Below, one piece after another: positions 47,388 to 64,000 of a stretch of DNA of 64,000 bases. Below the pieces are notes generated by a model that was not told where the DNA came from, did no database searches, and was given only the letters and a program-made list of their open reading frames with translations. Numbering within the stretch: the first letter of the stretch is position 1; each line of letters starts with the position of its first letter. This DNA is from Glycomyces algeriensis (lineage in GTDB: Bacteria > Actinomycetota > Actinomycetes > Mycobacteriales > Micromonosporaceae). The stretch is taken from the NCBI RefSeq assembly GCF_027622855.1, contig NZ_JAPZVR010000001.1:234664-298663 (forward strand), given 5' to 3'. A program made the position numbers and the translations under genes.

Positions 47388-47443
47388 TTCTGGGTTAGCG
47401 TACACACCTGCCTCATCCGAAACAGCAACGGAGCGACCACGCG

Positions 47444-48331: not shown

Positions 48332-49248
48332 TGCCCACCGCACTCGCCGCCCCAAGGCACCGCACGATCCACCACCGGGCGCGCCGGCCGCGCCACTCGG
48401 TCGCCTCGCCGCGCAAGTCCCTCGCCCTCACCCTCCTCATGGGACTCTTCCTGGCCTACGCGCTCGTGCCGCTCGCGTGGCTCTTCATCAATGCCTCCAA
48501 GACCCAGGCGGACCTCTTCAGCGGCTTCGGGCTCGCCTTCGGCGACTCCTTCGCCCTGTGGGACAACATCGTCCGCACCTTCACCTACGACGACGGCATC
48601 TTCCTGCGCTGGCTCGGCAACACGCTCCTGTACGTAGTCCTCGGCGCCGGAGGCGCGACCCTCCTCGCCACCCTCGCCGGGTACGGCCTCGCCAAGTACG
48701 CCTTCCCCGGCCGCAAGGCCTACTTCGCCGTCATCCTCGGCGCGATCGCCGTGCCCGGCACGGCTCTCGCCGTCCCCACGTTCCTCCTGTTCAGCGAGCT
48801 CGAACTCACCAACACCCCGTGGGCGATCATCGTCCCCTCGCTCATCAGCCCCTTCGGGCTCTACCTGATCTGGGTCTACACCCTCGAATCGGTGCCGAAG
48901 GAGCTCCTGGAGGCCGCGCGCATCGACGGCGCCGGCGAGATGCGCATCTTCTTCACCATCTCCGCCAAGCTGCTCGCCCCCGGCATCGTCACCGTGGCCC
49001 TCTTCGCGGTCGTCGCCACCTGGAACAACTACTTCCTGCCGCTCATCATGCTCAGCGACCCGAACTGGTACCCGCTCACCGTCGGGCTCAACCAGTGGAG
49101 CGAGCAGGCGTCCGGCGTCGCCGCCGAACCGATCTTCAACCTCGTCCTGACCGGATCGCTCCTCACGATCGTCCCGATCGTCGCGGTCTTCATCCTCCTG
49201 CAGCGCTTCTGGCAGTCCGGCCTCAGCGCCGGAAGCGTCAAGGGCTGA
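48331..49248 (+). CDS. Sugar ABC importer permease, MalG-like
   Basis: 305 residues from ATG 48331 (stop and start overlap as TGATG); the longer open frame upstream is a shadow. Six membrane helices are predicted after a 35-residue basic lead. The EAA loop is LLEAARIDGAGEMRIFFTISAKLLAPGI, and the helix pattern ATLAGYGLAKYAFPGRKAYF is typical of CUT1 permeases. With the MalF-like partner it forms the channel, and the following gene encodes the binding lipoprotein. Expression is probably under LacI control from the operators at 47343-47387. Confidence 0.92.
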   Translation: MPTALAAPRHRTIHHRARRPRHSVASPRKSLALTLLMGLFLAYALVPLAWLFINASKTQADLFSGFGLAFGDSFALWDNIVRTFTYDDGIFLRWLGNTLLYVVLGAGGATLLATLAGYGLAKYAFPGRKAYFAVILGAIAVPGTALAVPTFLLFSELELTNTPWAIIVPSLISPFGLYLIWVYTLESVPKELLEAARIDGAGEMRIFFTISAKLLAPGIVTVALFAVVATWNNYFLPLIMLSDPNWYPLTVGLNQWSEQASGVAAEPIFNLVLTGSLLTIVPIVAVFILLQRFWQSGLSAGSVKG

Positions 49249-49330
49249 CCGGACCCCTCCGGCCCCGCCCGATCCCGCCCAGCCCCGGGAGTCTCCGCAC
49301 CCCCGCACAACGAAGTGAAGGAACCCGCAC

Positions 49331-50656
49331 ATGTCCACTTTGAAGCGCCGCACCGTCATCGGCACCGTCCCCGCCGCCCTCGCCACCGGCGCACTCGCCG
49401 CCTGCGGCGACGACACCGAACCGGCCGCCGCCGGCAGCCCCGAAGACCTCGACGCCGCCCTCGAGCGAGGCGGCAAGCTCACCTACTGGACCTGGACCCC
49501 CTCCGGCGAAGCCCAGGCCGCGGCCTTCACGGCCCAGTATCCGAACGTCGAGGTCGAGGTCGTCAACGCCGGCACCGCCACCGACGAGTACACCGCCCTC
49601 CAGAACGCCGTCGCCGCCGGCTCCGGCGCACCCGACGTCGCCCAGATCGAGTACTACGCGCTCCAGCAGTTCGTCCTCTCCGACGCCCTCGTGGACCTCG
49701 GCCAGTACGGCCTCGCCGACCTCGAACCCCAGTACACCGCCTCGACATGGGCCGCCGTCGACCTCGGCGGCGTCTACGGCCTGCCCCAGGACTCCGGGCC
49801 GATGGTCATGCTCTACAACCAGGCCGTCTTCGACGAGTTCGGCCTCACCGTCCCCGCCACCTGGGACGAGTACGTCGCCGCGGCCGAAGCCCTCCACACC
49901 GCCGACCCGAACCGGTTCCTCACCAACGACGCCGGCGACCCCGGCTTCGCCCAGCCCCTCATCTGGCAGGCCGGCGGCCGGCCCTACACCGTCGACGGCA
50001 CGAACGTCGGCATCGACCTCCAGGACGAGGGCACCCGCCGCTGGGCCGACCTGTGGAACCGGATGCTCCAGCCCGGCCTCCTCGCCCCCATCCCCACTTG
50101 GAGCGACGACTGGTGGAAGGCCCTCTCCAACGGCACCGTCGCCAGCCTCATCAGCGGCTCCTGGATGCCCGGCATCCTCGAGGGCTCCGTGCCCGAAGGC
50201 GCCGGGAACTGGCGCGTCGCGCCCGTCCCCAGCTACGACGGCACCCCCGTCACCGCCGAGAACGGCGGCAGCGCCCAGTCCGTCCTCAAGCAGTCCGCGG
50301 ACCCGGCCCTCGCCGCGGCCTTCCTGCGCTGGCTCAACAGCTCCCCGGAGAGCATCGCCGTGTTCCTCGAGAACGGCGGCTTCCCCTCCACCACCGCCGA
50401 ACTCGCCTCGCCCGAGTTCACCGGCACCGCACCGGACTACTTCGGGGGCCAGAAGATCAACGAGGTGTGCGTCGCCGCCTCCGAGAACGTCGCCACCGGA
50501 TTCCAGTACCTGCCGTTCCAGGTCTACGCCAACAGCGTCTTCCCCGACACCGTCGGCGCCGCCTACACCGAGCAGGGCGACCTCAACGCCGGCCTCGAAG
50601 CCTGGCAGGAGTCGCTGGAGGGCTACGGCGAGGCCCAGGGCTTCCAGGTGAACTGA
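49331..50656 (+). CDS. Sugar-binding lipoprotein of the ABC importer
   Basis: 441 residues. The N-terminus is a twin-Arg-like lead (KRRTVIGT) and a lipobox ending AAC at Cys25, so it is probably a surface-anchored lipoprotein. The extracellular solute-binding family 1 fold is seen in GGKLTYWTWTPSGEAQAAAFTAQYPNVEVEVVNAG, GAPDVAQIEYYALQQF, VYGLPQDSGPMVMLYNQAVFDEFGL and a late NGGSAQSVLKQSADP. It follows the two permeases by 82 bp. The neighbouring GH93-like enzyme suggests arabino-oligosaccharides as ligand, but this is inference. A strong hairpin follows. Confidence 0.92.
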   Translation: MSTLKRRTVIGTVPAALATGALAACGDDTEPAAAGSPEDLDAALERGGKLTYWTWTPSGEAQAAAFTAQYPNVEVEVVNAGTATDEYTALQNAVAAGSGAPDVAQIEYYALQQFVLSDALVDLGQYGLADLEPQYTASTWAAVDLGGVYGLPQDSGPMVMLYNQAVFDEFGLTVPATWDEYVAAAEALHTADPNRFLTNDAGDPGFAQPLIWQAGGRPYTVDGTNVGIDLQDEGTRRWADLWNRMLQPGLLAPIPTWSDDWWKALSNGTVASLISGSWMPGILEGSVPEGAGNWRVAPVPSYDGTPVTAENGGSAQSVLKQSADPALAAAFLRWLNSSPESIAVFLENGGFPSTTAELASPEFTGTAPDYFGGQKINEVCVAASENVATGFQYLPFQVYANSVFPDTVGAAYTEQGDLNAGLEAWQESLEGYGEAQGFQVN

Positions 50657-50743: not shown

Positions 50744-51958
50744 TCAGGCGAGCGCCTGCTCGGGTTCGCGCACGCCCCTCCACATCGCGAGGAACGCCAC
50801 GAGACCCACTGCGGCGCACATGATCCACACGAACGAGTGCTCGATCTGGAACAGGTAGGTGCCCACCGCCGGACCCAGCGCGTAGCCGCCGATCTGGGCC
50901 GTGGTGATCGCCCCGATGTAACGGCTGCGGTGCCGGTCCGTGGGAGCCGCGAGCGCCGGATACGCCACCACCGAAGGCGCGGAGATGATCTCGCCGAACG
51001 TCCACACCAGGACCCCCGCGAAGCACACCCAGATCCCCGCCGGGACCCCGAACAGCGCCAGGCCCGCGCCGATGAAGAGGCTGCCGAACGCGATCGTCGT
51101 CCGCATCGGCAGCCGCTGCGTGTACCGGGTCACCGGCAGCTCGAACAGGATCACGATGGCGCCGTTCAAGGTCACGATCGTCCCGTACAGCCACGCCGGA
51201 TGGCCCTCGCTCAGGATCTGCAGCGGCAGCACCGCCTGGTACTGCGACTCGATGAACCCCGTCAGGAACATCGCGACGATCACCAGCACGTACTTCGAGT
51301 CCTTGAAGACGTCCCGGTAACTCACCGCGGGCGCTTCGTCGGACGACTCCTGGCCCTCGCGCGCGTTCGGGAGCAGGAACAGCGCGATGAGACCGAACGC
51401 CAGGTGCGTCAACGCGTTCACCACGAACATCAGCGCGAACGAATGCGTCAGCAGCCACACGCCGAGCATCGGACCGAGCGCCGCGCCCACGTTCAGCCCC
51501 AGCCGCGCCGCGGCGGAGACCATGACGAGCCGCTGCGGCGGCGTCAAGGCGGCCATCATCGCCGCGGCCGCCGGCCGGTACATCTGCCCGAACAGGCCCG
51601 CCGCGAACGCGAGCGCCACGAGCAGCCGGTAGTCCTCGGCGAACGCGACCCCGAGGACCGCCAGTCCCGAAAGGAGCATCGACCCGACGATGACCTGCCT
51701 GGCGCCCCACCAGGCGGTGACCGTCCCCGAGGCGAAGCTCCCGACGATCGAGCCGACGCCGAACACCGTGAGCGCGAGCCCCGCGCTGGCGGGGGTGTGG
51801 CCTCGCGCGGTGAGGTAGAGCGTGAGGAAGACCGCGATGAAGGTGCCGGTGCGGCTCAGCGCGATGCCGACGAGGAGGGTGATGACGGACGGCGGCAGGT
51901 CCCGCAGGGTGGACCAGACGCCGTCGGCGGCCTCCTCGGGGGCGCGGGTCCCGCTCAT
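50744..51958 (-). CDS. MFS exporter of the biosynthetic cluster (left operon)
   Basis: 404 residues from ATG 51958, whose ATGA overlaps the stop of the ATP-grasp gene. About 12 membrane helices are predicted: PPSVITLLVGIALSRTGTFIAVFLTLYLTARG at the front and the motif-A-like loop SGTVTAWWGARQVIVGSMLLSG. The family is a drug/metabolite MFS transporter of the MdtH/YfcJ-like kind. It is the last gene of the leftward operon (ATP-grasp, two carbamoyltransferases, diiron oxygenase, ATP-grasp, exporter). A role in product export or self-protection is inferred from position. Confidence 0.88.
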   Translation of the reverse strand: MSGTRAPEEAADGVWSTLRDLPPSVITLLVGIALSRTGTFIAVFLTLYLTARGHTPASAGLALTVFGVGSIVGSFASGTVTAWWGARQVIVGSMLLSGLAVLGVAFAEDYRLLVALAFAAGLFGQMYRPAAAAMMAALTPPQRLVMVSAAARLGLNVGAALGPMLGVWLLTHSFALMFVVNALTHLAFGLIALFLLPNAREGQESSDEAPAVSYRDVFKDSKYVLVIVAMFLTGFIESQYQAVLPLQILSEGHPAWLYGTIVTLNGAIVILFELPVTRYTQRLPMRTTIAFGSLFIGAGLALFGVPAGIWVCFAGVLVWTFGEIISAPSVVAYPALAAPTDRHRSRYIGAITTAQIGGYALGPAVGTYLFQIEHSFVWIMCAAVGLVAFLAMWRGVREPEQALA

Positions 51959-53178
51959 GCGGCTCCCCGCAGGGGCGTGCACTCGAAGATCGTCTCGGCT
52001 TCGGCGCGGTCGAGGATCTCCTGGCATTCACTCGCATTGGCGCCCAAGGCGATCAGGCAGCCGTACCGGGCGATGTACCCGTCAGGGGGCATGAGGAGCT
52101 CGTCCCCGGGGGCCGCGACCTGGACCGTCTCGAGCTCGCCGGGGCGCGCGGGCGGGAGCGCGATCTTGTCCACGACGGCGCTGCAGGGCGGCACGAGGAA
52201 CCGGATGGCGGTGTGCCGTTCGCGGCGGTGGGCGAGGTCCGGCCGTGCGCCGAGGGCGAGCCGGGTGCCCGCGACGCCGGAGTCGATACCGTTGGCCAGC
52301 ATGCCGAGGTAGGGGATGAGGTCGCCGCCGAGCCGGCCGTTGATCTCCACCAGGACCGGGCCCTCGGGGGTCAGCTTGACCTCGGTGTGGGTGCTGCCGT
52401 GGCGCCAGCCGACCGCTTCGTGGGCGGCGGCGAGCATCCCGGTGAGCGCCGTGTCGGCCAGCAGCGGATCGTGCGGGTCGACGGTGTGCCCCATCTCCTC
52501 GAAGTACGGTTCGGGGCCGATCTGCTTGCGCGCCAGCGCGTACGGGAGGTACTCGCCGTCGATGACGGCGGCGTCGACGCTGATCTCGGGCCCGGTGAGG
52601 TACTGCTCCAGGAGCAGGGTGCCGTCGTTGCGCATGCCCGCCTGCTGCGTGCCGCGGGCCGCCGCCACGGCCGCGGCCAGGTTCCCGGAATCGTCCACTT
52701 TGATCACGCCTTGGCTGGCGCCGAGCGCGATCGGCTTGACCACCAGCGGGAATCCGATCGCGGCGGCGGCCTCGGTCCCGTCGTCGCCTGGTGCGAGGAC
52801 GTGGAACGCGGGCTGCGGGACGCCCGCTTCGGTGAGGCGGCGGCGGGTCGCGGACTTGTCGCGGACGGCCCGCACCGCTTCGGGGTCGGGCCCGGGCAGG
52901 CCGAGTTCGGCGGCGGCTTCGGAGGCGGCCTGGATGGCGGCCTCGTGCCAGCAGAACACGCCCAGGACGTGGTGTTCGGCGGCGACCCGCCGCACGGCCT
53001 CGCGGGCGGCGGCGGGGTCGAACACGTCGCACACGGTGTGCCCGGCGAGGTACGGCGCCTGCCAGGTCGGCTCGGCCGGGTCGAGCGCCCACAGCGGAGT
53101 GCCCTCCCTGGCGGCGGAGGCCAGCAGGTACTCGCGGAACAGCTCGTGCCCGGTGCCCATGATCAGCAGCAGGTCCAT
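51955..53178 (-). CDS. ATP-grasp ligase (carboxylate-amine ligase type), left operon
   Basis: 407 residues. It has the ATP-grasp layout: a pre-ATP-grasp Rossmann-like front (LLIMGTGHELFREYLLASAAREGTPLWALDPAEPTW), the ATP-binding strand LVVKPIALGASQGVIKV and the metal-binding end VLVEINGRLGGDLIPYLG. Such enzymes join a carboxylate to an amine through an acyl phosphate. Sequence style is that of the biotin carboxylase/carnosine-synthase group. It overlaps the exporter (ATGA) and starts 19 bp after the diiron oxygenase. It is one of two different ATP-grasp ligases in this operon. Confidence 0.9.
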   Translation of the reverse strand: MDLLLIMGTGHELFREYLLASAAREGTPLWALDPAEPTWQAPYLAGHTVCDVFDPAAAREAVRRVAAEHHVLGVFCWHEAAIQAASEAAAELGLPGPDPEAVRAVRDKSATRRRLTEAGVPQPAFHVLAPGDDGTEAAAAIGFPLVVKPIALGASQGVIKVDDSGNLAAAVAAARGTQQAGMRNDGTLLLEQYLTGPEISVDAAVIDGEYLPYALARKQIGPEPYFEEMGHTVDPHDPLLADTALTGMLAAAHEAVGWRHGSTHTEVKLTPEGPVLVEINGRLGGDLIPYLGMLANGIDSGVAGTRLALGARPDLAHRRERHTAIRFLVPPCSAVVDKIALPPARPGELETVQVAAPGDELLMPPDGYIARYGCLIALGANASECQEILDRAEAETIFECTPLRGAA

Positions 53179-53197
53179 CGGCGTCGCTCCATTCTGG

Positions 53198-54145
53198 TCA
53201 GGGCAGGATCAGGCCTTGCTCGGTGAACGCGTCCCGAGCGCCGGGCTGGTCGAGGACGCCCACCTCCTCGAACAGCCGCAGGGTCTTCGCCGCCGAGTGC
53301 CGGATGCCGGCCAGCACCCGCTCGTTCGAGAACGAGTCGGCGATGACGTCCTTCACCTGCGTCTCGCCGAGCCCGGTCGACAGGAGCGCGTCGCGCGCCG
53401 GGTCGGTGGCCGGGCGCAGCGAGCGCAGGACGAGCGGCGGCAGGTAGTGCGCGACCCGCTGCCGCAGCGGCGGGTCGAGCTGGCTCCACAGGTGCTTGAA
53501 GAACGCGCTGAAGAAGGCGTGGTGGCGGCCTTCGTCGATCGCGTGCTCGCGCACGGTGTCGCGCATGATGTCCACGACGCTCTCGTCCGGCGGGATGTCG
53601 GAGAGGATCGAGGTCACGAGGGTCTCGAACACGACGACCTGGAGCAGTTCGACCAGCTTGCGGTGCTGCGGGAACTCCTCGCCGACCGCGTCGAGCCCGG
53701 AGATGAACGGCCCGAAGTCGTAGTCCAGCGCGGGGATCCCGGAGCGGTTCACGAGCTGGTGCTGGACGTCGAGGCTGTACAGCGAGTGGTAGCCCTCGTC
53801 GACGACGATCTTGTACGCGTCCATGCGGGTGGTCTCGTGCAGGTGCAGCCCGCTGGAGCCGTCCGCGATCTTCTGCGAGGCGCGCACGACCACCGCGACC
53901 TCGAAGTGCATCGTGAACCGCAGCCACTGGTACGCGTGCTGCGCCGTCAGATACCGGCGCAGCACCAGGTCCTCCTGGTCGAGGAGCGGGTGGTCCAGGT
54001 GCGGCACCAGGTGCTCGGGGAAGAACGCCTTGTGGATGTCGTCCTCGGGGGCGAGCATCTTGCGGCGCTCGGCCCGGACCCCCGCGCGCTCGTACCAGTT
54101 GCGGAAGGCCTCGATGCGGGGCATCGGGGCGTCGCCGGCGAACAC
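53198..54145 (-). CDS. AurF-like diiron oxygenase
   Basis: 315 residues from GTG 54145 (GGGAG six bases upstream); ATG 54124 is an alternative. Numbered from that ATG, the candidate iron ligands are Glu75 (HFEVAV), Glu110 and His113 (DEGYH), Glu167 (FETLV), His194, Glu198 and His201 (EHAIDEGRHH). These seven keep nearly the spacing of the p-aminobenzoate N-oxygenase AurF (E101, E136, H139, E196, H223, E227, H230). AurF oxidises an aryl amine to a nitro group. The substrate here may be an aminobenzoate made by the divergent anthranilate-synthase-like genes. It lies between a carbamoyltransferase (2 bp away) and an ATP-grasp gene. Confidence 0.88.
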   Translation of the reverse strand: MFAGDAPMPRIEAFRNWYERAGVRAERRKMLAPEDDIHKAFFPEHLVPHLDHPLLDQEDLVLRRYLTAQHAYQWLRFTMHFEVAVVVRASQKIADGSSGLHLHETTRMDAYKIVVDEGYHSLYSLDVQHQLVNRSGIPALDYDFGPFISGLDAVGEEFPQHRKLVELLQVVVFETLVTSILSDIPPDESVVDIMRDTVREHAIDEGRHHAFFSAFFKHLWSQLDPPLRQRVAHYLPPLVLRSLRPATDPARDALLSTGLGETQVKDVIADSFSNERVLAGIRHSAAKTLRLFEEVGVLDQPGARDAFTEQGLILP

Positions 54146-54147
54146 GG

Positions 54148-55884
54148 CTACTCCCGGGCCCGCGCGGGGTGGCCGGCGGGCAGTTCGCGCCCGGGCTTGC
54201 CGACCAGGTACCCCTCGATGTAGAGGTGGTCGATCTCGGTGCGGGCGAAGGTCCGCAGCGCGTCCTCGGGGGTCTCGACGATCGGCTCGCCGTTGTCGTT
54301 GAAGGAGGTGTTGAGGACGATCGGCACGCCGGTGCGCGCGGCGAACAGCGAGATCAGCTCGTGGTACTCCGGGTCCACTTCGGCGTCCACGGTCTGGACG
54401 CGGGCGGTGCCGTCCACATGGGTGATGGCCGGCAGCCCGTCGCGGCGGTCCTCGCGGACCGAGGGGACCAGCAGCATGAACGGGCTGGCGCCGCGGAAGT
54501 CGAACCAGTCCTCGACGGCCTCGGCGAGCACCGAGGGCGCGTAGGGCCGGAACGGCTCGCGGTGCTTCACGGTGTCGTTCAGGTAGTCGCGGACGCGCGG
54601 GTGGCGCGGGTCGGCGAGGATCGACCGGTGCCCGAGCGCGCGCGGCCCCATCTCGGAGCCGCCGTTCACCCATGCCACGATCCGGTGCTCGGCCAGGAGG
54701 TCGGCCACGTCGCTGATCGGCGCCTTCCGCCACTCCAGCCTGCCTTCGTACGCTTGCAGCGATTCGAGGACGCGCTCCTCGGAGTAGCGCTGACCGTATG
54801 CGGCGGTGGTCATCCGCCCGCGCCGCTCGGTGCCGCCGTCGAGGATCTGGTGCCAGCCGTACAGGGCCGCGCCGATGGCGACGCCGGAGTCGCCGGCCGG
54901 GGCCGGGATGAACACCTCGTCGAAGGGGCCCTCGGCGAGGACCCGGTGGTTGGCGACCGAGTTGAGCATGACGCCGCCGCCGAGGCAGAGCCTGGTCTCG
55001 CCGGTGCGGCGGTGGGCCTCCCCGGCGAGGTGCAGCATGGCCTCCTCGAGCTCGTCCTGGACCTTGCGCGCCACGTCCTTCGCGAACTGGCAGTCCCAGC
55101 GCCGCTCGGTGAGCGACTCCCACTCGGCGCCGTCGGAGGCGACGATGTCCTTCCAGATCTGCTCGAGCCCCGCCTGGGAGACGGTGATGTCGAAGCCGTC
55201 GAAGGTGAGCCACCGGCCCCAGTCGGGCCGGGGCTCGCCGTAGGGCGCCAGGCCCATCGTCTTGCCGGCCTCGGGGTAGCCGCCGCATTCGAAGACCCCG
55301 AAGTCGGGCGTCCCGTACCGGGTGGTGAACCCGAGTTTGGCGGTGAAGAAGTCGTAGAACAGCCCGATGCTCATGTCGCTGTAGTCGACCGGGTAGGCCG
55401 TCTCGGCGACGCGGGTGATCTCGACGCCGCTGCCGGTGAACAGGGTGTGCTTCTCGACCATGCCGTCGGTGCGGCTGCCGGCCTGGTCGACGATGAGCAC
55501 GGCCGCGCTTTCGAACGGCGAGGTGTAGAACGCGGTGGCGGCGTGCGCCAGGTGGTGCGAGGGGAACGGGAAGGCCCGCACCTTGCTCTTGTCCTTGAGG
55601 GGGAGGTCGCGCAGGATGCGCGGGACCGTGCGGTCGCCGAGCGGCCGGTTGCCGACGATGAGGTCGACCTCGTCGATGCCGATCCCGGCGGCGTCGAGGC
55701 AGTAGGCGATGGACTTGATCGGGATGAGCTTGGTGAGGCGCTCGAAGTGGCCCTGGATCAGGAACCCTTCTGAGTGCTTGATGCGGTCGAGCCGCTCCTC
55801 CTCGATCGCGGCGAGGACCTCGCCGTCCTTGACGATGGCGGCCGAGCGGTCGTGGCTGAGGTTGACGCCGAGGATGTAGGTCAT
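54148..55884 (-). CDS. NodU/CmcH-type carbamoyltransferase 1
   Basis: 578 residues. The N-terminal Kae1-like domain starts ILGVNLSHDRSAAIVKDGEVLAAIEEERLDRIKHSEGF and has the metal-binding HHLAHAATAFYTSPFESAAVLIVD and LCLGGGVMLNSVANHRVL. The C-terminal domain has the GPRALGHRSILADPR signature and FRPYAPSVLAEAVEDWFD. The family (NodU, CmcH, TobZ) makes carbamoyladenylate from carbamoyl phosphate and ATP and moves the carbamoyl group to a hydroxyl of a small molecule. It starts 33 bp after a second, different carbamoyltransferase gene. Confidence 0.93.
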   Translation of the reverse strand: MTYILGVNLSHDRSAAIVKDGEVLAAIEEERLDRIKHSEGFLIQGHFERLTKLIPIKSIAYCLDAAGIGIDEVDLIVGNRPLGDRTVPRILRDLPLKDKSKVRAFPFPSHHLAHAATAFYTSPFESAAVLIVDQAGSRTDGMVEKHTLFTGSGVEITRVAETAYPVDYSDMSIGLFYDFFTAKLGFTTRYGTPDFGVFECGGYPEAGKTMGLAPYGEPRPDWGRWLTFDGFDITVSQAGLEQIWKDIVASDGAEWESLTERRWDCQFAKDVARKVQDELEEAMLHLAGEAHRRTGETRLCLGGGVMLNSVANHRVLAEGPFDEVFIPAPAGDSGVAIGAALYGWHQILDGGTERRGRMTTAAYGQRYSEERVLESLQAYEGRLEWRKAPISDVADLLAEHRIVAWVNGGSEMGPRALGHRSILADPRHPRVRDYLNDTVKHREPFRPYAPSVLAEAVEDWFDFRGASPFMLLVPSVREDRRDGLPAITHVDGTARVQTVDAEVDPEYHELISLFAARTGVPIVLNTSFNDNGEPIVETPEDALRTFARTEIDHLYIEGYLVGKPGRELPAGHPARARE

Positions 55885-55917
55885 CGGTGCGCGCTCCTTC
55901 CGGTGCTGGGGTGTGGG

Positions 55918-57627
55918 TCAGCCGCTGTTGCGGCGGTAGAGGGTGCCTTCGCTCCAGACGAGGTCGACGCGGCCCCAGGCGAGGGCGGAGGCGACGTCGG
56001 GGAAGAACCCGCTGCCCTTGAGGTTCGCGCTGGTGTTGCACAGCACGGGGATGCCGCTGGCCTCGAAGTAGGACTCGAGGAGGCGCCGCACGGCGCCGTC
56101 GCCGCGCCCGACGGTCTGGAGCCGGGCCGTGCCGTCGAGGTGGACGATCGCGGGGATACGGGCCCGCCACTCGGGGCGGACCTCGTGGTCGAAGAGCATG
56201 TACGGGTCCGGGGTGCCGGGGGTGAAGACGCCGGGAGCGGCCTCCTCCAGGCAGATCGGCGCCACGGGCCGGTAGGGCTCGCGGTCCTTGACCTCGTTGA
56301 GGCGGTCCTTCATCTTCGGCGAGGTGGCCGGGGCGATGATCGACCGGCTGCCGAGCGCGCGCGGCCCGAGTTCGGCGCGGCCGTCGAGGACCACGCACGG
56401 CTCGCCGGTGCGGTGGAGGATCCGGCCGAGCTCCGCTTCGTCCACTGCGGCGGCGCTCCAGCCCTCGGGGACTTCGTCGAGGGGCTTGAGCGCGGGGCCG
56501 AGCTTGACGTGCCAGTCGACCGGCGCGGCCGGGTTCTCGCGGCCCAGGGCCGCCGCGCCGATGGCCGATCCGGAGTCGTTGGGGAACGGCGGCACCCACA
56601 CGTCCTCGAACTCGTCGAGCGCGCGGAGCCGGGAGTTCCACTTGATGTTCAGGGCGCAGCCGCCGACGAAGCAGAGCTTCCAGGGGCCCTCGCCCTTCCA
56701 CTCGCGCACCCGGGCCCGCAGCTGCTCGGAGAGGAGCCGCTCGAGGAAGACGTGGACGCTGGCGAGGACGTCCGCGTCGGAGGCGCCGCTGGCACCGTCG
56801 CCGCGCACGATCCGCTTGACCTCGCGGAAGTAGTGGTGGAGGTAGTCGAGCACCGGTTCGGAGGTGGATCCGAAGCCGCCCACGGCATGCCGGTAGCCGA
56901 CCGCCAGCGCCTCGGAGCCGAGGAAGTTCTCCTCGTACTTCTCCCGTAGCACGGCGATGACGTCCTCTTTGGGCGATCCGAGCGCGATGTACGCCATGAG
57001 CTTGCCGGCCACCGAGAGGTCCTCGTTGACCGAGGCGGGGCGCTCGTCCCAGTGGAACGGTCCGAAGTGGTGCGCGGCGACGGCGTAGGTGTGGCCGGTG
57101 AGCGGGAACAGCGCGCCGCCGTTCTCGACGGTCCCGTCGGGGTCGACGTGGTAGAGGCGCGGGAAGCTGCCGCCGTCCCACACCAGGACCAGCGCGCTCT
57201 CGCGGCGCTGCCCGAAGGGGCTGAGGCCGTAGGAGCTCGCCACGTGACCGGCGACGTGGACGTGGCTGGTGTAGGGCCGCGCCTTCCCTCCGATGGGGAG
57301 GGTCCCGTCGAAGCCGGGCTCGAACAGGTTCGGCACCGCCTCGGTCTCGCGGTAGGGGGCGAGCTGGAGCAGGACGGGCTCGCCGTCGGATTCGAGGCTC
57401 ACCTGGCCGAACTTGGCGCCGTCCCAGCCGTCGACGACCCACCGGTCGACCTGGTCGGGCCGGTAGCCGAAGTCGGCGAGCAGCTCGGTGACGACGGCGA
57501 GGTCGGCCACCTGGCCGTGCCGGGCGCCGTTGCCGAGCTTCTCCATCTCGACGCTGAAGACCAGCCGGTCGCCGTCGATGAGCGCGACCGCGCCGTCGTG
57601 CGTGAGTTTGAGGCCGCAGACGATCAT
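55918..57627 (-). CDS. NodU/CmcH-type carbamoyltransferase 2
   Basis: 569 residues, a divergent paralogue of carbamoyltransferase 1. It starts IVCGLKLTHDGAVALIDGDRLVFSVEMEKLGNGARHG, has the metal motif HVHVAGHVASSYGLSPFG and the nucleotide-binding CFVGGCALNIKWNSRLRAL. The C-terminal signature is ELGPRALGSRSIIAPATSPKMKDRLNEVKDREPYRPVAPICLEEAAP. Its start codon overlaps the stop of the upstream ATP-grasp gene (ATGA). Two carbamoyltransferases in one operon suggest two carbamoylations, or that one has taken another acyl-transfer role. Confidence 0.92.
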   Translation of the reverse strand: MIVCGLKLTHDGAVALIDGDRLVFSVEMEKLGNGARHGQVADLAVVTELLADFGYRPDQVDRWVVDGWDGAKFGQVSLESDGEPVLLQLAPYRETEAVPNLFEPGFDGTLPIGGKARPYTSHVHVAGHVASSYGLSPFGQRRESALVLVWDGGSFPRLYHVDPDGTVENGGALFPLTGHTYAVAAHHFGPFHWDERPASVNEDLSVAGKLMAYIALGSPKEDVIAVLREKYEENFLGSEALAVGYRHAVGGFGSTSEPVLDYLHHYFREVKRIVRGDGASGASDADVLASVHVFLERLLSEQLRARVREWKGEGPWKLCFVGGCALNIKWNSRLRALDEFEDVWVPPFPNDSGSAIGAAALGRENPAAPVDWHVKLGPALKPLDEVPEGWSAAAVDEAELGRILHRTGEPCVVLDGRAELGPRALGSRSIIAPATSPKMKDRLNEVKDREPYRPVAPICLEEAAPGVFTPGTPDPYMLFDHEVRPEWRARIPAIVHLDGTARLQTVGRGDGAVRRLLESYFEASGIPVLCNTSANLKGSGFFPDVASALAWGRVDLVWSEGTLYRRNSG

Positions 57628-59015
57628 GCGTCAGTCCTTCTCGATTCGTGGCCCTTGGCGAGCAGGGCCTCCAGGTTGTCGAGGACGTGGTAGGAGTCCG
57701 CGACGAGGGTGTCGGCCGAGGCGGCACGGAGCATGAAGATGCCGCCGTAGCCGAGCGCCCCGGTGCTGAGGTCGTAGGCGGGCATGGGGGTCCCGGCCGG
57801 GATGCACAGGCCGGGGACGGCGGTGACGGTGGTCCCCGGGTCGACGACGCCGGTCCAGTCCACGAGGGACTCGTCCCAGACGGGGTGCTCGGTCCACGGC
57901 CGCCCCGCCGAGTCGGTCGCGATGAGCGACAGCGATCCGGCCGCGCCCGTGGCGTCAGTGTCGAGGAGCATCCGCTCGGGCGGGTCGATCGGCTCGCCCA
58001 GGAGCGCGTCGGTGAGCATGCCGACGATGTCGACGCCGAAGCAGTGCTCGATCTCGGCGGCGACCATGACGCCGCCGAGCCGCGCGGCCGACTCGAGGAC
58101 GGAGAGCTTCCCGTCGGGGCAGAGCTTGAGTTCGGTGTGGGTGCCGCAGTAGTCGAGTCCGAGGGCGTCCACCGCGGCGCGGGAGACGCGTTCGATCTCC
58201 CGTTGGGCCGCTTCGGGAAGCGCGCACGGCGCGAGGTTGCTCAACTCGGTGAACGGCGGAATCGTGGGGATGCGGGAGGTGATGCAGACCGGGTGGTAGA
58301 CACCGCCCGCGACCACGCCCTCGACGCTCAGGTAGTCGCCGTAGCCGCTGTCCGCGTCCCACCAGGACTCGGTGCTCGCCTGGATGATCTCCTCCACGAG
58401 GAAGTCCGCGTCGGCGCCGGCGACCTGCATCTCGGTGTAGCCGCGCTCGCGGGCCCGGATCATCGCCTCGTTGGCCTGGGCCCAGGCGGATTCGATGTCG
58501 GCCTCGGTCTCGAGCACGAGCTGGCCGATGGCCCCGGCGCCCCAGGCGTGCTTGAGGAGCATCGGGGCCTCGAGCTCGCGGAAGGCCTTGCGGAGATCGG
58601 CGGCGGAGTCGACGGACCGGAACCGCGGCACGGGGACTCCGGCGTCCTCCCACACTTGCCGCATCCGGCGCTTGTCGCGGGAGTTGACCGCATTGGGGCC
58701 GGCGCCGCGCAGGCCGAGCCGCTCGGCCGCTTCGGCGACGGCGATGACGGCGTACTCCGAGAGCGTCAGGATCGCGTCGGCGCCGATCCGCTCGGCCTCT
58801 TCGACGATGAGGCCGACCAGGTCGTCACCGGTGCGCTCGGTCTCCCAGTGGGGTGTCACCGAAGTGCAGTGGGGACTCCACAGTGGTTCGGTATGAGTCG
58901 GCGGCGGTTTGAGCGCGAGAACGTGCAACTCGGCTTTGGCCGCAATTTTCGGAAAGGCGTACTCGAGTGGCGCGCCGCCGCGAGAATAGACGAAGAGCAC
59001 CTTTTTTCCAGGCAC
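57624..59015 (-). CDS. ATP-grasp ligase, first gene of the left biosynthetic operon
   Basis: 463 residues from GTG 59015, with GGGAG seven bases upstream. The front Rossmann-like part is KKVLFVYSRGGAPLEYAFPKIAAKAELHVLALK. The ATP-binding part has MLLKHAWGAGAIGQLVL, and the metal end is LSVLESAARLGGVMVAAEIEH. It is a member of the carboxylate-amine ligase ATP-grasp group and differs clearly from the other ATP-grasp in the operon. It probably activates a carboxylic acid and joins it to an amine; neither partner is known. The start codon lies in a small inverted repeat (59013-59033). Confidence 0.9.
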   Translation of the reverse strand: MPGKKVLFVYSRGGAPLEYAFPKIAAKAELHVLALKPPPTHTEPLWSPHCTSVTPHWETERTGDDLVGLIVEEAERIGADAILTLSEYAVIAVAEAAERLGLRGAGPNAVNSRDKRRMRQVWEDAGVPVPRFRSVDSAADLRKAFRELEAPMLLKHAWGAGAIGQLVLETEADIESAWAQANEAMIRARERGYTEMQVAGADADFLVEEIIQASTESWWDADSGYGDYLSVEGVVAGGVYHPVCITSRIPTIPPFTELSNLAPCALPEAAQREIERVSRAAVDALGLDYCGTHTELKLCPDGKLSVLESAARLGGVMVAAEIEHCFGVDIVGMLTDALLGEPIDPPERMLLDTDATGAAGSLSLIATDSAGRPWTEHPVWDESLVDWTGVVDPGTTVTAVPGLCIPAGTPMPAYDLSTGALGYGGIFMLRAASADTLVADSYHVLDNLEALLAKGHESRRTDA

Positions 59016-59033
59016 AGTCGTCTCCCTACTGTG
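59013..59033 (-). promoter_or_regulatory. Hairpin at the ribosome-binding site of the ATP-grasp gene
   Basis: On the minus strand CACAGT-AGGGAGACG-ACTGTG: the start GTG closes the stem and the ribosome site AGGGAG is in the loop. If it forms, it could limit translation of the first gene of the left operon. Confidence 0.4.
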
Positions 59034-59538
59034 ATAACGAGAAGAACGCGGGGGAAAGGGATCCGGACCCGCATGCGCGCGGGTCGGCTATGGGGGTATC
59101 GGGTTCCGGGCGGTGACACGACGTGTCAGGCCGGTGACGATCGTATGAGACGCGGGGGTCCGTGTCAAGCACACCCTGGAAGGCGCTTCCATAGTGGCTC
59201 GAGTGCATGAGCTGGCATTTCAGTGACACAATGGTTCCATTGTGACCAGAGTGAGCGCACAAGGGACGGCAGTGGCCCGTGCGTTCCGGGCGGAGTGTCC
59301 CGAACGCCGGATCTATGACCACCGTCACAAACCCTGGGTCGCGGGGCATTTCGCCGCCGCTGAGCATGGGGATCGTCACTGTCGGGAGTCGTCCCGGCCA
59401 TGGCGACTTTCGCAACAGGAGCCTCAATGGATGCAGTGCTTCCCAATCGACCCAATACGGTGGGAGCGGTGCACAACGGTTTTGGCTTGCCGATGCTAAT
59501 CTGGCCCGATCCCCCAGACCGGCGAAAGGTCCGTATTG
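59016..59538. other. 523-bp divergent control region of the biosynthetic cluster
   Basis: Lies between the left operon (starts 59015) and the right operon (starts 59539). It is noticeably less GC-rich than the flanking genes. No convincing gene is present; short plus-strand ORFs at 59242 and 59279 lack domain or codon support. It contains an 18-bp perfect palindrome (59227-59244) and the ribosome site GAAAGGT before the right operon. Confidence 0.6.
59227..59244. promoter_or_regulatory. Perfect palindrome, candidate cluster operator
   Basis: CACAATGG-TT-CCATTGTG, 8-bp arms, roughly midway between the two divergent operons. It is the strongest dyad in the control region and suits binding by a dimeric regulator. 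No regulator gene of the cluster is inside the window. Confidence 0.65.
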
Positions 59539-61068
59539 ATGAGCGCAGCTGCCGACCGACCCAAGATCGCATTGCGGCGCTTTCTCTCCAAAGCCGAAGA
59601 CCCGTTCGCATCGTTCATTCGACTGCGCGCGGCAGAAGGCGAACAGAACGTCTTCCTCTTCGAATCACTCGCCGGCCCCGCGGCCGACAAGACCCGCGCC
59701 ATGATCGGCGCGACCCCGCTGCTCGACGTCGTCGTCCGCGACGGGGTGCTCGAACTCGACGGCCGGGGGCCGTGGCTCGACTGGGCGCTGCGTCGCATGG
59801 CCGGCTTCGGCGGCGCGCGGCCCGAGGGCGAGCGGTTCTACCGCCTCCACGAGCGCACCGCGCTGTGGGAGGCCTTGCGCCACCTCGAAAGCGGGCTCGA
59901 CGTCGACGGTCTCGACGACCAGGGCTTCGGCTTCGGATTCGTCGCCCTCCTCAGCTACGACGCGGTGACCTACATCGAGACCCTGCCGCGCCTGATCGAG
60001 GCCCACGACCGGGTCCCCGACGCGGTGTTCCGGATCTACCGCTCCGTCATCGAGATCGACCTCGTCCGCCGCGAAGCCCAGCTCCACGTCGCCCACTGCC
60101 CCGACTGGGACGAGCCCGACCCGGCCGACGTGCACCGCGGCATCGAGGCCGCGCTCGCCACCGAAGCGGCGCAGGCGAACCAGGTCCCCGAACCGCCGCT
60201 CAGCGACGTCGAACCGGAGCTGACGATCACCCCGGAGTCCTACGGCGAACGCGTCGAGCGCTCCCTGGAGCGCATCCGCGCCGGCGACATCTACCAGGTC
60301 CAGATCGGACACGAGGTCCGCATGCGCGGCAAACGCTCCGACCTCGACGTCTACCTGCGGATGCGGGCCAACAACCCCTCGCCGTACATGGGGTTCGTGC
60401 CCTTCGACGACCTCACGCTCCTCAGCGCCAGCCCCGAGCTCCACGTCCGCATCGAAGCCGACCACCTCACCATGCGCCCCATCGCCGGGACGGCCCGCCG
60501 CGGCGCCACCGCCGCCGAGGACGAGGCCCGCGCCGCGCGCCTGCGCGGCGACGAGAAGGAGATCGCCGAGCACATCATGCTCGTCGACCTGTGCCGCAAC
60601 GACCTCGGCCGCGTCGCCGACCCCGGCTCCGTCGAGGTCGACGACCTCATGAACGTCGAGGCCTACTCCCATGTACTGCACCTGGTCTCCACGGTGACGG
60701 CCGACCTCGCCGCCGGCTTCGACGCCTACGACGTCATCCGCGCGACCTTCCCTGCCGGCACCATGACCGGCGCCCCGAAGCTGCGCGCCATGGAGATCAT
60801 CGAGACCACCGAGACCAGCCGCCGCGGCATGTACGCCGGCGCGTTCGGCGTCATCGGCTTCGGCGGGTTCACCAACCTCGCTTTGAGCATCCGCACCATC
60901 GTCGCCACCGGCGACGCCTACACGGCCCGGGCCTCCGCAGGGGTCGTCGCCGACTCCTCGCCCCAGGGCGAATGGCGCGAGACCCTCGCGAAACTCGGCT
61001 CATCGATCCACGCCGTCGTCGGACACGACGCGGCCACCGACTCCGCACCGAAGGGCGACACCCGATGA
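59539..61068 (+). CDS. Anthranilate-synthase-like chorismate enzyme (component I)
   Basis: 509 residues from ATG 59539 (GAAAGGT eight bases upstream; a TTG one codon earlier also fits). The chorismate-binding domain has GDIYQVQIGHEVRM, LLSASPELHVRIE, RPIAGTARRG, EHIMLVDLCRNDLGRV and FPAGTMTGAPKLRAMEII. The PIAGT motif is that of anthranilate synthase TrpE; typical PabB enzymes have PIKGT with a catalytic Lys. It should therefore make anthranilate or 2-amino-2-deoxyisochorismate. It is coupled (ATGA) to an amidotransferase subunit. Placement in a cluster, not a trp operon, points to specialised metabolism. Confidence 0.88.
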   Translation: MSAAADRPKIALRRFLSKAEDPFASFIRLRAAEGEQNVFLFESLAGPAADKTRAMIGATPLLDVVVRDGVLELDGRGPWLDWALRRMAGFGGARPEGERFYRLHERTALWEALRHLESGLDVDGLDDQGFGFGFVALLSYDAVTYIETLPRLIEAHDRVPDAVFRIYRSVIEIDLVRREAQLHVAHCPDWDEPDPADVHRGIEAALATEAAQANQVPEPPLSDVEPELTITPESYGERVERSLERIRAGDIYQVQIGHEVRMRGKRSDLDVYLRMRANNPSPYMGFVPFDDLTLLSASPELHVRIEADHLTMRPIAGTARRGATAAEDEARAARLRGDEKEIAEHIMLVDLCRNDLGRVADPGSVEVDDLMNVEAYSHVLHLVSTVTADLAAGFDAYDVIRATFPAGTMTGAPKLRAMEIIETTETSRRGMYAGAFGVIGFGGFTNLALSIRTIVATGDAYTARASAGVVADSSPQGEWRETLAKLGSSIHAVVGHDAATDSAPKGDTR

Positions 61069-61661
61069 AGGCACTGCTCATCGACGCGTACGACAGCTTC
61101 GCGCACATCATCTACCAGTACCTGCGCGTCCTCGACATCGACACGGACGTGATCCGCTCCGGCGACATCGCGCCCGCCGGGGCCCTCGCCCACGACGCCG
61201 ACTTCGTCCTCCTCGGCCCCGGACCCGGCACCCCCGAGGACTCCGGCCACGTCGAGATGGTCCGCGCCCTCGCCGGCGTCAAACCGGTCCTCGGCGTCTG
61301 CCTCGGCCACCAGGCCGTCGGCGTCGCCTTCGGCGCGCAGGTGCGGCCCGCCCGCCACCTCATGCACGGCAAGACCAGCACGATCGACCACGACGGCCGC
61401 GGCGTCTTCACCGATGCGCCGCAACGCTTCAGCGCCACCAGGTACCACTCGCTCATCGTCGTCGAGGACACCCTCCCCGCCGAACTCGAGGTGACCGCCC
61501 GCGCCGCCGACGACGGCTACGTCATGGGCGTGCGCCACCGCGAACTCCTCATCGAGGGCGTCCAGTTCCACCCTGAGTCGATCCTCACCGAATCCGGCAT
61601 GGGCCTCTTCGCCGGCTTCGCCGCCGCCGTCCGCGCCCAGCCCGCCGGGGCCCGCGCATGA
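61065..61661 (+). CDS. Glutamine amidotransferase, component II partner of the chorismate enzyme
   Basis: 198 residues, class I amidotransferase of the TrpG/PabA type. The oxyanion loop is GPGPGTPEDSG, the nucleophilic Cys is in GVCLGHQAVG, HGKTSTI is the family signature, and the His-Glu pair is in VQFHPES. It supplies ammonia from glutamine to the adjacent synthase. The N-terminus reads LLIDAYDSFAHIIYQYL, where most relatives have DNYDSF, which suggests a specialised branch. Start and stop overlap by 4 bp with both neighbours, so the three genes are tightly coupled. Confidence 0.92.
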   Translation: MKALLIDAYDSFAHIIYQYLRVLDIDTDVIRSGDIAPAGALAHDADFVLLGPGPGTPEDSGHVEMVRALAGVKPVLGVCLGHQAVGVAFGAQVRPARHLMHGKTSTIDHDGRGVFTDAPQRFSATRYHSLIVVEDTLPAELEVTARAADDGYVMGVRHRELLIEGVQFHPESILTESGMGLFAGFAAAVRAQPAGARA

Positions 61662-62281
61662 AGATCCTGACCATCAACGGCTCCGAGCGGTCCCGCGGCT
61701 CCACCTGGCTCGCCGTCCAGGCCATCGTGGAGCGCGCCCGCGCCCGCGGCTGCGAGACCCGCGAAGTCGACCTCGCCGAGCAGCGCGTCACCCGCTGCGA
61801 CTGCGGCCGCTGCAATTCCAGGACCGACCCCTGCCCCGTCGACGACGACGTCGGCACGATCGTCGCCGCCATGGTCGAAGCGGACGCCGTCTTCCTCGCC
61901 GCGCCCGTCCACGGCTTCGGCCTCTCCTCGCTCATGCAGACCTTCGTCGAGCGCGCCGGGGTCGGGCATCTGCGCTTCGAGCGGCCCCTCACCAACACCA
62001 TCGGCGCCGCCGTCGTCATCGGCCGCCGCTACGGCCACCTCGACGTGCACGCTCAACTCCTGCACAACCTGCTGCTCAACCGCTTCATCGTCGTCGGCAG
62101 CGGCTTCCCCGTCACCATCCACTCCGGAGGCGAGCAGGGCGTCCTCTCCGACACCGAGGGCATGGAGGCGCTGCACCGCACCGTCGACCGCATCATCGAC
62201 ATCGGCAACGCCCTCGCCGAGTCCGGGACGCGGCTCCCGCGCCCGTCCGAGGTCGAGCGGCGCGTCGGAAGGACGAGCTGA
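61658..62281 (+). CDS. NADPH-dependent FMN reductase family flavoprotein with Cys cluster
   Basis: 207 residues with the flavodoxin-like fold: ILTINGSERSRGSTWLAVQAIVERARARG (phosphate loop of FMN) and AVFLAAPVHGFGLSSLMQTFVERAG. Between them lies CDCGRCNSRTDPCPVDDD, a Cys-rich loop like that of iron-sulfur flavoproteins and related NAD(P)H reductases. It may supply electrons to the diiron oxygenase or reduce a pathway intermediate. It overlaps the amidotransferase gene by 4 bp. The role in the pathway is inferred from co-location only. Confidence 0.85.
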   Translation: MKILTINGSERSRGSTWLAVQAIVERARARGCETREVDLAEQRVTRCDCGRCNSRTDPCPVDDDVGTIVAAMVEADAVFLAAPVHGFGLSSLMQTFVERAGVGHLRFERPLTNTIGAAVVIGRRYGHLDVHAQLLHNLLLNRFIVVGSGFPVTIHSGGEQGVLSDTEGMEALHRTVDRIIDIGNALAESGTRLPRPSEVERRVGRTS

Positions 62282-62285
62282 CCGA

Positions 62286-63521
62286 GTGACCGTCACGCAG
62301 GCACCGCGGGCCCGGACCGGCGGCCTGGGCCTCCTCATCGGCAGCAAGTCCGCCTCCACCGTCGCCTACGCGACCTCCTGGGTCCTGCTGCCGCTCTACG
62401 TCTACCAGGCCAGCGGCTCGGCCCTGCTGACCGCGCTGGCGTCCGCGGCGAACGTGCTCCCGTTCCTCCTCTTCGGGCTCCTCGCCGGGGCCGCCGTCGA
62501 CCGCTCCTCGCCGGTGCGGGTCATGGCCTGGATGGAAGTCGCCAACGCCGCCGTGCTGCTGTGCGTGCCGCTCCTGGCCGCCACGGTCGGCGCGGGCCCG
62601 GTTGTGTTGTGCGCCATCGGGTTCGCCTCCGCGACCGCCTACGTCTGGTTCGACGTGGCCAGCGCCGCGCTCGTCCCGGCACTCGCCGGGGCCGACGGCG
62701 TCTTCCGCGCCAACAGCTACCTCTGGATGACCACCACCGTGCTCACGGCCGTGGCCGCACCGGTCGGGTACTTCCTGCTCGAAACGCTCCGGCTCGGCCC
62801 CACCTTCGCGGTCCTCGCCGCCTGCTACCTGCTCTCGGCGGCGCTCATCGCCGCCATCCGGCCGCGCCCGGACACGGCCGGCCCGTCCCGGCCCGAACCC
62901 GGGGCGGTCTGGGCCGGCCTCAAGTACCTCGCCGGCCACCCGCTGCTGCGGACCTACACCACGGTGAACGTGGGCGTCGGGGTGAGCGCCGGAGCCGTCT
63001 ACGGGATGCTGGTCGTCTTCGCCTCCCGCGCGCTCGGCCTGCCCAGCGACGACTACCGGGTCGCGTGGATCGTCGCGGCCTCCGGGGTCGGCGCACTGCT
63101 GGGCGCGATCGCGGCCCGCCGCTTCAAAGGCGTGCCGCCGATCCCGGCGGCCCGCTGGATGACCGGCCTCGACCTGCTCCTGCTGCTCGCGTACGCCGCC
63201 GCGCCGTCCTGGCAGCTCGCCGCCGTCCTGCTGCTGTCCTGGAACGCCGTCCACACCTGCTTCCTGGTGGTGGGCATCTCGGTGCGCCAGACCGCTACAC
63301 CGCAGCGGCTCCAAGGACGCGTGAACGCCGTGGGCCGCATGATCGTCTGGGGTTCAGTGCCGCTCGGTACGCTGCTGTGCGGCGGCCTCACCGAACTCAT
63401 CGGTCCACGGTGGGCACTGGCCGCCCTGGGCGCGTTCGCGTTCGCGAGCCTCGTCACCGCCCTGCGCGCCCCCAGCGCGCTGCACACGGACAACGCACTT
63501 CTTGAGAAAGCAGACACATGA
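62286..63521 (+). CDS. MFS exporter of the biosynthetic cluster (right operon)
   Basis: 411 residues from GTG 62286, 4 bp after the reductase stop. About 12 membrane helices are predicted. It shows LLIGSKSASTVAYATSWVLLPLYVYQASGSALLTALASAANVLPFLLFGLLAGAAVDRSSPVRVMAWMEV, which is typical of the MFS macrolide-efflux-like (MefA/Cmr) group. It is a second, different exporter of the cluster and probably transports the product or an intermediate. Its stop overlaps the glycosyltransferase start (ATGA). Confidence 0.9.
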   Translation: MTVTQAPRARTGGLGLLIGSKSASTVAYATSWVLLPLYVYQASGSALLTALASAANVLPFLLFGLLAGAAVDRSSPVRVMAWMEVANAAVLLCVPLLAATVGAGPVVLCAIGFASATAYVWFDVASAALVPALAGADGVFRANSYLWMTTTVLTAVAAPVGYFLLETLRLGPTFAVLAACYLLSAALIAAIRPRPDTAGPSRPEPGAVWAGLKYLAGHPLLRTYTTVNVGVGVSAGAVYGMLVVFASRALGLPSDDYRVAWIVAASGVGALLGAIAARRFKGVPPIPAARWMTGLDLLLLLAYAAAPSWQLAAVLLLSWNAVHTCFLVVGISVRQTATPQRLQGRVNAVGRMIVWGSVPLGTLLCGGLTELIGPRWALAALGAFAFASLVTALRAPSALHTDNALLEKADT

Positions 63522-64000
63522 CCTCATCCCGTCCACTGAGGGTGCTCTTCGTGGCCTTCAGCCGCTCCAGCCTCGGCCACGTGACGCGCATGCGCACGGC
63601 CGCCAGGCGCTTCGCCGACGCCGGACACACCGTCGCCGTCGCCGCCCACGAGGAGGTCCGGCACCTCATCGAGCACGCCGGCCTGGCATGGATCGGCATC
63701 GACGAGATCGGGCCCGCCCCGGCCTGGCGCGGCATGAGCGACGTCGCGAGCCTGCGCGCCTTCGCCCGCACGCGGCTCGCCAGCCCCATCTACGTGCAGG
63801 CCTCCCTGCGCGACGAGCTGCGCGCCATCGACGAGTTCGCCCCCGACGCCGTGGTCAGCGACATGCGCAACACCGCGTCCGTCGCGGCCTCGATGCGCGG
63901 GCTGCCGAGCTTCACCTGCCACAACCTGCGCCTGTTCAAGCACCCGATGCACGCGGTGCTCCCGGAGATCCTGGCGACCCTCGAGGCGATCGGCGTCGAG
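63518..64000 (+). CDS. GT-B glycosyltransferase, 3'-truncated by the window edge
   Basis: Starts at ATG 63518 (ATGA overlap with the exporter) and stays open to the last base, giving at least 161 residues. The front reads RPLRVLFVAFSRSSLGHVTRMRTAARRFADAGHTVAVAAHEE, the first Rossmann strand and GHVTR loop of GT1/MurG-type glycosyltransferases. It continues with FAPDAVVSDMRNTASVAASMRGLPSFTCHN, the typical acceptor-domain segment. The C-terminal donor-binding half lies outside the window. It implies that the cluster product, or a resistance form of it, is glycosylated. Confidence 0.85.
   Translation, partial: MTSSRPLRVLFVAFSRSSLGHVTRMRTAARRFADAGHTVAVAAHEEVRHLIEHAGLAWIGIDEIGPAPAWRGMSDVASLRAFARTRLASPIYVQASLRDELRAIDEFAPDAVVSDMRNTASVAASMRGLPSFTCHNLRLFKHPMHAVLPEILATLEAIGVE

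Follow-up and report, generated by a model that had tools for sequence, protein, structure and literature searches.

Two divergent operons at the right end of a 64,000-nucleotide stretch of Glycomyces algeriensis DNA (hereafter the window; RefSeq assembly GCF_027622855.1, contig NZ_JAPZVR010000001.1, positions 234,664 to 298,663) form an orphan cluster whose core varies a known cassette. The host is a soil actinobacterium, and the source genome of the window comprises 5.59 Mb in 34 contigs. The right operon is probably neither a p-aminobenzoate (PABA) route nor a plain anthranilate route. The conversion of chorismate into 2-amino-2-deoxyisochorismate (ADIC), and then into 3-O-enolpyruvoylanthranilate (OPA), is judged from the sequences a better reading than the aminobenzoate unit that had been proposed in an earlier note on this DNA, taken as a PABA-type unit. 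The left operon is probably, but not certainly, an accessory module that modifies the product of the right one. Taken as a whole, the explanation in which the right operon is the core and the left operon an optional addition stands about evenly balanced between right and wrong.

The gene families, clade memberships, conserved cofactor ligands, distribution and linkage reported here are read directly from the sequences. The left operon occupies the minus strand from 59015 to 50744 and encodes successively ATP-grasp ligase 1 (ATP-grasp1), two carbamoyltransferases (CT1 and CT2), an AurF-like diiron oxygenase, ATP-grasp ligase 2 (ATP-grasp2) and an exporter of the major facilitator superfamily (MFS1). 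The right operon starts at 59536 on the plus strand with TrpE-like and TrpG-like proteins, a flavin mononucleotide (FMN) protein, a second exporter (MFS2) and a GT-B glycosyltransferase. It runs off the window, as had been noticed earlier, and continues with a gene for a 373-residue protein, a cytochrome P450 and a GT2 glycosyltransferase; the last four genes end at 64747, 65831, 67234 and 68235 in window numbering, and a convergent EF-hand gene adjoins the 3' end of the operon after GT2. The packing, previously described for the left operon as ATGA joints or short gaps, corresponds in the two operons to five four-base overlaps (ATP-grasp1/CT1, ATP-grasp2/MFS1, TrpE/TrpG, TrpG/FMN protein and MFS2/GT-B) and to 2-33 bp at the remaining intergenic joints of both operons. 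A codon-usage gene caller placed the start of the AurF-like gene at 54145 (315 residues) and that of MFS1 at 51958. Every gene family named in the earlier note was recovered with Pfam, NCBIfam also being run, and no polyketide synthase (PKS) or nonribosomal peptide synthetase (NRPS) family was detected among the sixteen proteins scanned with Pfam (ten in the window, six others). Supported, too, is the earlier description of a gene set free of PKS and NRPS that combines two carbamoyltransferases with ATP-grasp ligases, glycosyltransferases and a diiron protein of the AurF type. The open-access literature, among the matches listed, gave no description of this gene set, in agreement with the earlier remark that no known cluster with it was recognised. 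Its order is repeated in two other Glycomyces genomes (G005 and G015) with 81-95% protein identity and, judged by this conservation, is not due to chance.

The ADIC reading is carried by the first three genes of the right operon. The TrpE-type subunit, a predicted ADIC synthase of the SgcD clade (59536..61068, plus strand; PF00425, 278 bits), is followed by its glutamine amidotransferase partner of the TrpG type (61065..61661, plus strand; PF00117, GATase, 160.9 bits) and by an SgcG-like FMN/[Fe-S] flavoprotein, a predicted ADIC dehydrogenase (61658..62281, plus strand; FMN_red, 91.3 bits). The TrpE-like protein shares 43% identity with SgcD, encoded by plasmid SGLP1 of Streptomyces globisporus C-1027 (NZ_CP013739.1), and 30% with a PabB-like protein of its own genome. 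All seven Glycomyces copies from right operons carry the motif PIAGT; the PabB-like protein of the same genome carries PIKGT, which we take to be the motif of aminodeoxychorismate synthases of the PabB type. In a tree of 46 rows, these seven copies and the Nocardiopsis protein fall with SgcD in a 31-row clade with a support of 99/99, most rows of this clade having been picked because an SgcG-like gene adjoins them. The PabB-like and other TrpE proteins fall outside it, and the long-branch warnings concern branches elsewhere in the tree. The TrpE of one SgcG-like locus (L222), which detracts from the association, also lies outside the clade. With SgcG of the C-1027 plasmid the FMN protein shares 48.7% identity (query coverage 91%) and with the SgcG-like group 46-53%, and four cysteines are invariant across 15 aligned homologues. 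The route from chorismate through ADIC to OPA is thus the better reading because of the PIAGT motif, the grouping with SgcD and the SgcG-like partner. The identification of the TrpE-like protein as a PABA/aminodeoxychorismate synthase was rejected on its PIAGT in place of PIKGT and on its placement in the SgcD clade. According to the available excerpt of PMC10098953, SgcD makes ADIC, in which the pyruvate is retained, and SgcG makes OPA.

The distribution of this operon was followed by a scan for SgcG-like genes, limited to the best 80 of 85 loci, with the window's own genome lying outside those 80. The gene calls of the relatives come from the codon-usage caller, and many names of neighbouring genes from a reading of their first residues by eye. 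Twelve loci constitute a class of their own: six of Glycomyces type, including one metagenome-assembled genome (MAG), five from Catellatospora species and one from Nocardiopsis metallicus. The GT-B gene (63518..64000, extending to 64747 outside the window, plus strand) and the gene for the 373-residue protein are present at all 12 loci and at none of the 68 others. MFS2 (62286..63521, plus strand; PF07690, MFS_1, 51.4 bits) is likewise found in the 12 operons, with relatives near eight of the 68 other SgcG-like genes, and P450 and GT2 accompany nine of the 12; the right operon of G. tenuis is devoid of both. The acyl-AMP ligase that cyclises OPA gave no match near any of the 12 operons, whereas a match was observed near 57 of the 68 other SgcG-like genes (tblastn with the C-1027 ligase as query, cutoff E 1e-10, within at most 10 kb on either side and less at some loci). 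A genome-wide search at E 0.001 gave no match in six of the seven Glycomyces genomes that have the right operon. The seventh, G. tenuis, has a weak partial match (30% over 165 residues), one of two partial matches (28-30%) detected among 22 Glycomyces genomes. In Escherichia coli provided with an ADIC synthase and dehydrogenase, benzoxazolinate was obtained only once the acyl-AMP ligase was added (PMC10098953, available excerpt). Benzoxazolinate was considered as the product and rejected: it is unlikely because the cyclising ligase, of the XsbC type, is missing from this class, and the failure of this defining feature is the reason why the operon is not classed as a benzoxazolinate pathway.

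The 373-residue protein matched no Pfam or NCBIfam family, and no PDB sequence at E up to 1. Its AlphaFold model has a weak confidence (pLDDT 69, pTM 0.69), and the matches listed by Foldseek are mostly GT-A glycosyltransferases and nucleotidyltransferases, with a best E of 8.1e-5 and TM scores of 0.25-0.36 by query length. The name GT-A-like is consequently a weak claim, given this low-confidence model and such low TM scores.

A second argument for ADIC is provided by Catellatospora, whose right-type operons are devoid of TrpE and TrpG. A TrpE search with classified matches found no SgcD-like protein in the five Catellatospora genomes, and a PhzE-like gene is present in all five (L249, L250, L252, L253 and L254), about 41% identical to a second PhzE-like protein of C. 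tritici (L238). The best solved match of the latter is 3r74 (E 1.2e-131), which we take to be PhzE. Up to five genes on either side of those five PhzE-like genes were inspected by eye, and none was recognised as a phenazine gene; in C. vulcania the C-terminal half of a PhzE-like gene directly follows GT2. Enzymes of the PhzE type are described as ADIC synthases in the excerpt of PMC10098953. An exchange of ADIC synthases between an SgcD type and a PhzE type, with the dehydrogenase kept, speaks for the ADIC reading, and the stand-alone PhzE genes would then serve the Catellatospora operon. In Nocardiopsis metallicus (L154, 7076-15433), the right-type operon lies between chorismate-mutase-like and prephenate-dehydrogenase-like genes amid a housekeeping block (names by eye).

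In the proposed pathway, the TrpE/TrpG pair would convert chorismate and glutamine into ADIC, which the SgcG-like flavoprotein would dehydrogenate to OPA. As the cyclising ligase is missing, OPA would stay uncyclised and no benzoxazolinate would be formed. OPA would be glycosylated by GT-B and then by the GT-A-like 373-residue protein, with the P450 and GT2 where present, and the glycosylated OPA would be exported. Where the optional left module is available, its ATP-grasp ligases would add an amino-acid-type unit through amide bonds, the AurF-like enzyme would N-oxygenate an amine, the NodU-type CT1 would carbamoylate a sugar hydroxyl and the NovN/TobZ-type CT2 a second hydroxyl, and MFS1 would export the resulting product. 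We infer every one of these chemical steps, their order and the action of both modules on one molecule. A bolder extension, rather unlikely in its entirety and put forward tentatively, is that of a new NRPS- and PKS-free product class. It would be built on uncyclised OPA as glycosyl acceptor (the FMN protein, MFS, GT-B and GT-A-like genes shared by Glycomyces, Catellatospora and Nocardiopsis), with an ADIC synthase swapped between SgcD and PhzE types and with an exchangeable module by which two O-carbamates and an N-oxygenated amino-acid unit, the latter joined by ATP-grasp ligases, would be added.

ATP-grasp1, encoded by the first gene of the left operon (57624..59015, minus strand; ATP-grasp, 33.2 bits), is of the BacD (alanine-anticapsin ligase) type. 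It matches 3wo1 with phmmer (E 2.2e-50), and BacD, known from the dipeptide pathways of L-amino-acid ligases, is its nearest relative among solved structures. ATP-grasp2 (51955..53178, minus strand; PF13535, ATP-grasp_4, 62.6 bits) is of the L-amino-acid-ligase type, with PRK02186 as its best NCBIfam subfamily (169.8 bits, below the cutoff of 625); a gap in this gene in G. paridis is a run of unread bases and so says nothing on a possible disruption. Both carbamoyltransferases contain the N- and C-terminal domains PF02543 and PF16861. CT1 (55918..57627, minus strand; Carbam_trans_C/N 144.6/229.4 bits) resembles rhizobial NodU, with 50-51% identity over its whole length to the 15 plasmid matches listed, 13 of which are annotated NodU. 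It differs from NodU in falling below the equivalog cutoff (nodul_NodU, NF041651, 668.8 bits against a curated cutoff of 1000). CT2 (54148..55884, minus strand; Carbam_trans_C/N 232.6/138.9 bits) is of the NovN/GdmN/TobZ O-carbamoyltransferase type and matches these proteins over nearly its whole length: residues 10-569 of 578 match 9s2t with 256.8 bits in phmmer, and GdmN and TobZ chains are matched too. MFS1, encoded by the last gene (50744..51958, minus strand; PF07690, 157.6 bits), is 79-91% identical in the three other genomes with a left operon.

The association of the two operons was investigated across 22 Glycomyces genomes with AurF as the marker of the left operon and the FMN protein as that of the right. 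The right operon was found in seven genomes and the left in four, all four left carriers also having the right; the corresponding P value, 0.0048, treats the genomes as independent and takes no account of phylogeny. The operons are adjacent in three of the four genomes having both, the window being counted. This adjacency can also be observed in C. coxensis, where a left-like operon (AurF 49%, ATP-grasp1 47% and CT2 68% identical to the copies of the window) lies beside the right one in a convergent layout, that of the window being divergent. A cooperation of the two operons is likely, although not proven, because this left-like operon stands next to the right one in another genus and another layout. 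In addition, relatives of ATP-grasp2 (28-42%) are found near 31 of the 68 other SgcG-like genes against one of 23 control loci (Fisher P 2.5e-4), a comparison in which the 31/68 loci are not independent and the controls were picked for convenience.

Several observations weigh against this cooperation, and the operons are separable. The right operon occurs without the left in G. niveus, G. tenuis and one MAG; the two are unlinked, on different contigs, in G. paridis; and no left genes were detected at Nocardiopsis metallicus and four of the five Catellatospora loci, where the search covered the flanks of the operon. At the corresponding site of G. niveus, about 0.75 kb separates an endonuclease-IV-like gene from the right operon that comes after it. 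The window has a counterpart of this gene (84% identical), which ends at 41241; the right operon begins about 18 kb further on, and the left operon is part of that interval. Two neighbouring genes are moreover in swapped order between the two sites. The portion of the window from 41278 to 50656, missing at the G. niveus site, also carries several genes that were named by eye: one resembling asparagine synthase, one for a TetR-like regulator, one for a large secreted protein bearing ricin-type repeats, and those of a LacI/sugar-ABC operon. The conserved upstream elements of the two operons also differ. That of the left operon is a putative promoter-like element, TTGACA-17-TACGAT (59140..59168, minus strand), with identical hexamers in all four left operons, the unlinked one of G. 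paridis among them. The right-operon element, TGGGAGCG ... TGnTAnnCT (59461..59502, plus strand), is present in all seven Glycomyces right operons. An upstream motif common to both was sought and rejected, the 300-bp upstream stretches of G. paridis yielding no more than a single match, an overlapping 12-mer in which there is a mismatch.

The G. niveus site without the left operon, the separate contigs in G. paridis and the differing upstream elements speak for two independent neighbouring pathways, in which the left operon would make its own ligated, N-oxygenated and carbamoylated peptide or amino acid and the right one a glycosylated OPA or anthranilate. A SARP-like gene (by eye) adjoining the left operon in G. 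paridis, the presence of one MFS exporter per operon and the SbnA/SbnB/OTC-like genes proper to the left-like operon of C. coxensis point in the same direction. The restriction of the left operon to carriers of the right, the recurrence of their adjacency in a second genus with the opposite layout and the ATP-grasp genes beside many SgcG-like genes argue against it. Independence is a serious possibility, although somewhat doubtful. The counter-evidence named in the earlier note, that the two operons are unrelated and independently conserved, is half borne out: the right operon is kept without the left and the two are unlinked in G. paridis, but the left accompanies the right in all four of its genomes and a left-like operon stands beside the right one in C. 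coxensis.

The aminobenzoate scheme of the earlier note, in which the ring amine of a PABA- or anthranilate-type unit would be N-oxidised by AurF and then amidated, carbamoylated and glycosylated, has to be weighed against the context of the AurF-like protein (53198..54145, minus strand; PF11583, 83.7 bits). This protein matches the AurF structures 3chh and 2jcd as well as 5hyg, presumably CmlI. It retains all seven metal-ligand positions (E82, E117, H120, E174, H201, E205 and H208) of what we take to be the diiron-ligand list of AurF. These intact ligands are in favor of the scheme, AurF itself being a p-aminobenzoate N-oxygenase. Relatives with 49% identity in C. coxensis (L243, 15272-19249) and in G497 (L117, 9056-13241), however, are encoded between SbnA-like and SbnB-like genes (246 and 200 bits, and 263 and 183 bits, none of which reaches its curated cutoff) and are followed by an OTC-like gene; this set possibly makes an N-oxygenated, carbamoylated 2,3-diaminopropionate. 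Five other relatives (41-45% identity; G036, G401, G441, G218 and G203) are encoded beside a tryptophan-2,3-dioxygenase-like gene, of which one copy was scored (205 bits, below cutoff) and which could supply ortho-amino aryl ketones, a point for the aminobenzoate scheme. Other actinobacteria have a recurrent cassette of an SDR, a class-I PLP enzyme, AurF-like and tryptophan-2,3-dioxygenase-like proteins and, in some cases, a hydrolase (L025 8579-12267, L118 7806-11760, L120 7555-12532, L121 7595-12575 and L119 1353-5203; three proteins scored, the others named by eye), which suggests an uncharacterised pathway of N-oxidised kynurenine type. A tree of AurF proteins meant to choose the substrate class did not place the Glycomyces branch nearer to either group. 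The action of AurF on an aromatic amine is thus weakened, and the contexts of its relatives, which favour diaminopropionate or kynurenine-type substrates over OPA, are at the same time unfavorable to an action on the core proposed here. AurF moreover accompanies just three of the 12 right operons of the class, C. coxensis being one of these. With the PIAGT motif, the SgcD-clade TrpE and its SgcG-like partner as further objections, the aminobenzoate scheme is improbable. Still less credible is an ordinary anthranilate synthase with a general reductase, making a glycosylated anthranilate: the top NCBIfam model of the TrpE-like protein is indeed anthranilate synthase, but at 374.5 bits for a cutoff of 517.7, and this reading is opposed by the strongly supported SgcD clade, the flavoprotein with its four-cysteine motif and SgcG-like identity, the PhzE-like genes that replace TrpE/TrpG in Catellatospora and two further chorismate-binding enzymes elsewhere in the host genome.

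The preferred reading, an OPA core with an optional left module, can be compared with known systems. The C-1027 cluster and related benzoxazolinate clusters share with the right operon the TrpE-type ADIC synthase homologue, the glutamine amidotransferase and the FMN/[Fe-S] dehydrogenase. The Glycomyces operon differs by the lack of an acyl-AMP ligase, by the addition of conserved MFS, GT-B and GT-A-like genes and by the lack of any PKS or NRPS family among the proteins scanned. To our knowledge, ADIC-to-OPA chemistry is known only from benzoxazolinate makers, in which the ring is closed by the acyl-AMP ligase. A conserved family that lacks this ligase and has glycosyltransferases of its own would mean a second fate of OPA, predicted because the cyclase is missing and the glycosyltransferases are conserved. 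This fate is testable and gives a product to seek in culturable strains. The natural separated arrangements of G. niveus, G. tenuis, G. paridis and C. coxensis could show by comparative metabolomics what each module contributes. The xsb cluster of Xenorhabdus szentirmaii, as far as the excerpt of PMC10098953 describes it, includes the dehydrogenase and draws its ADIC from a PhzE homologue encoded elsewhere, as the Catellatospora operons may do, but requires the acyl-AMP ligase XsbC.

Other SgcG-like genes occur in different surroundings. At many loci (L086 8885-14131, L087 8542-16544, L164 235-12877 and similar ones), they are accompanied by an ATP-grasp ligase and an MFS gene, by tryptophan-synthase-beta-like and chorismate-mutase-like genes (names by eye) and frequently by an acyl-AMP ligase too; this is another widespread cluster type. 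On plasmids of the Pseudomonas syringae group (H32-H40), a flavoprotein 36% identical can be observed, that of H40 being annotated as a 2-amino-4-deoxychorismate dehydrogenase.

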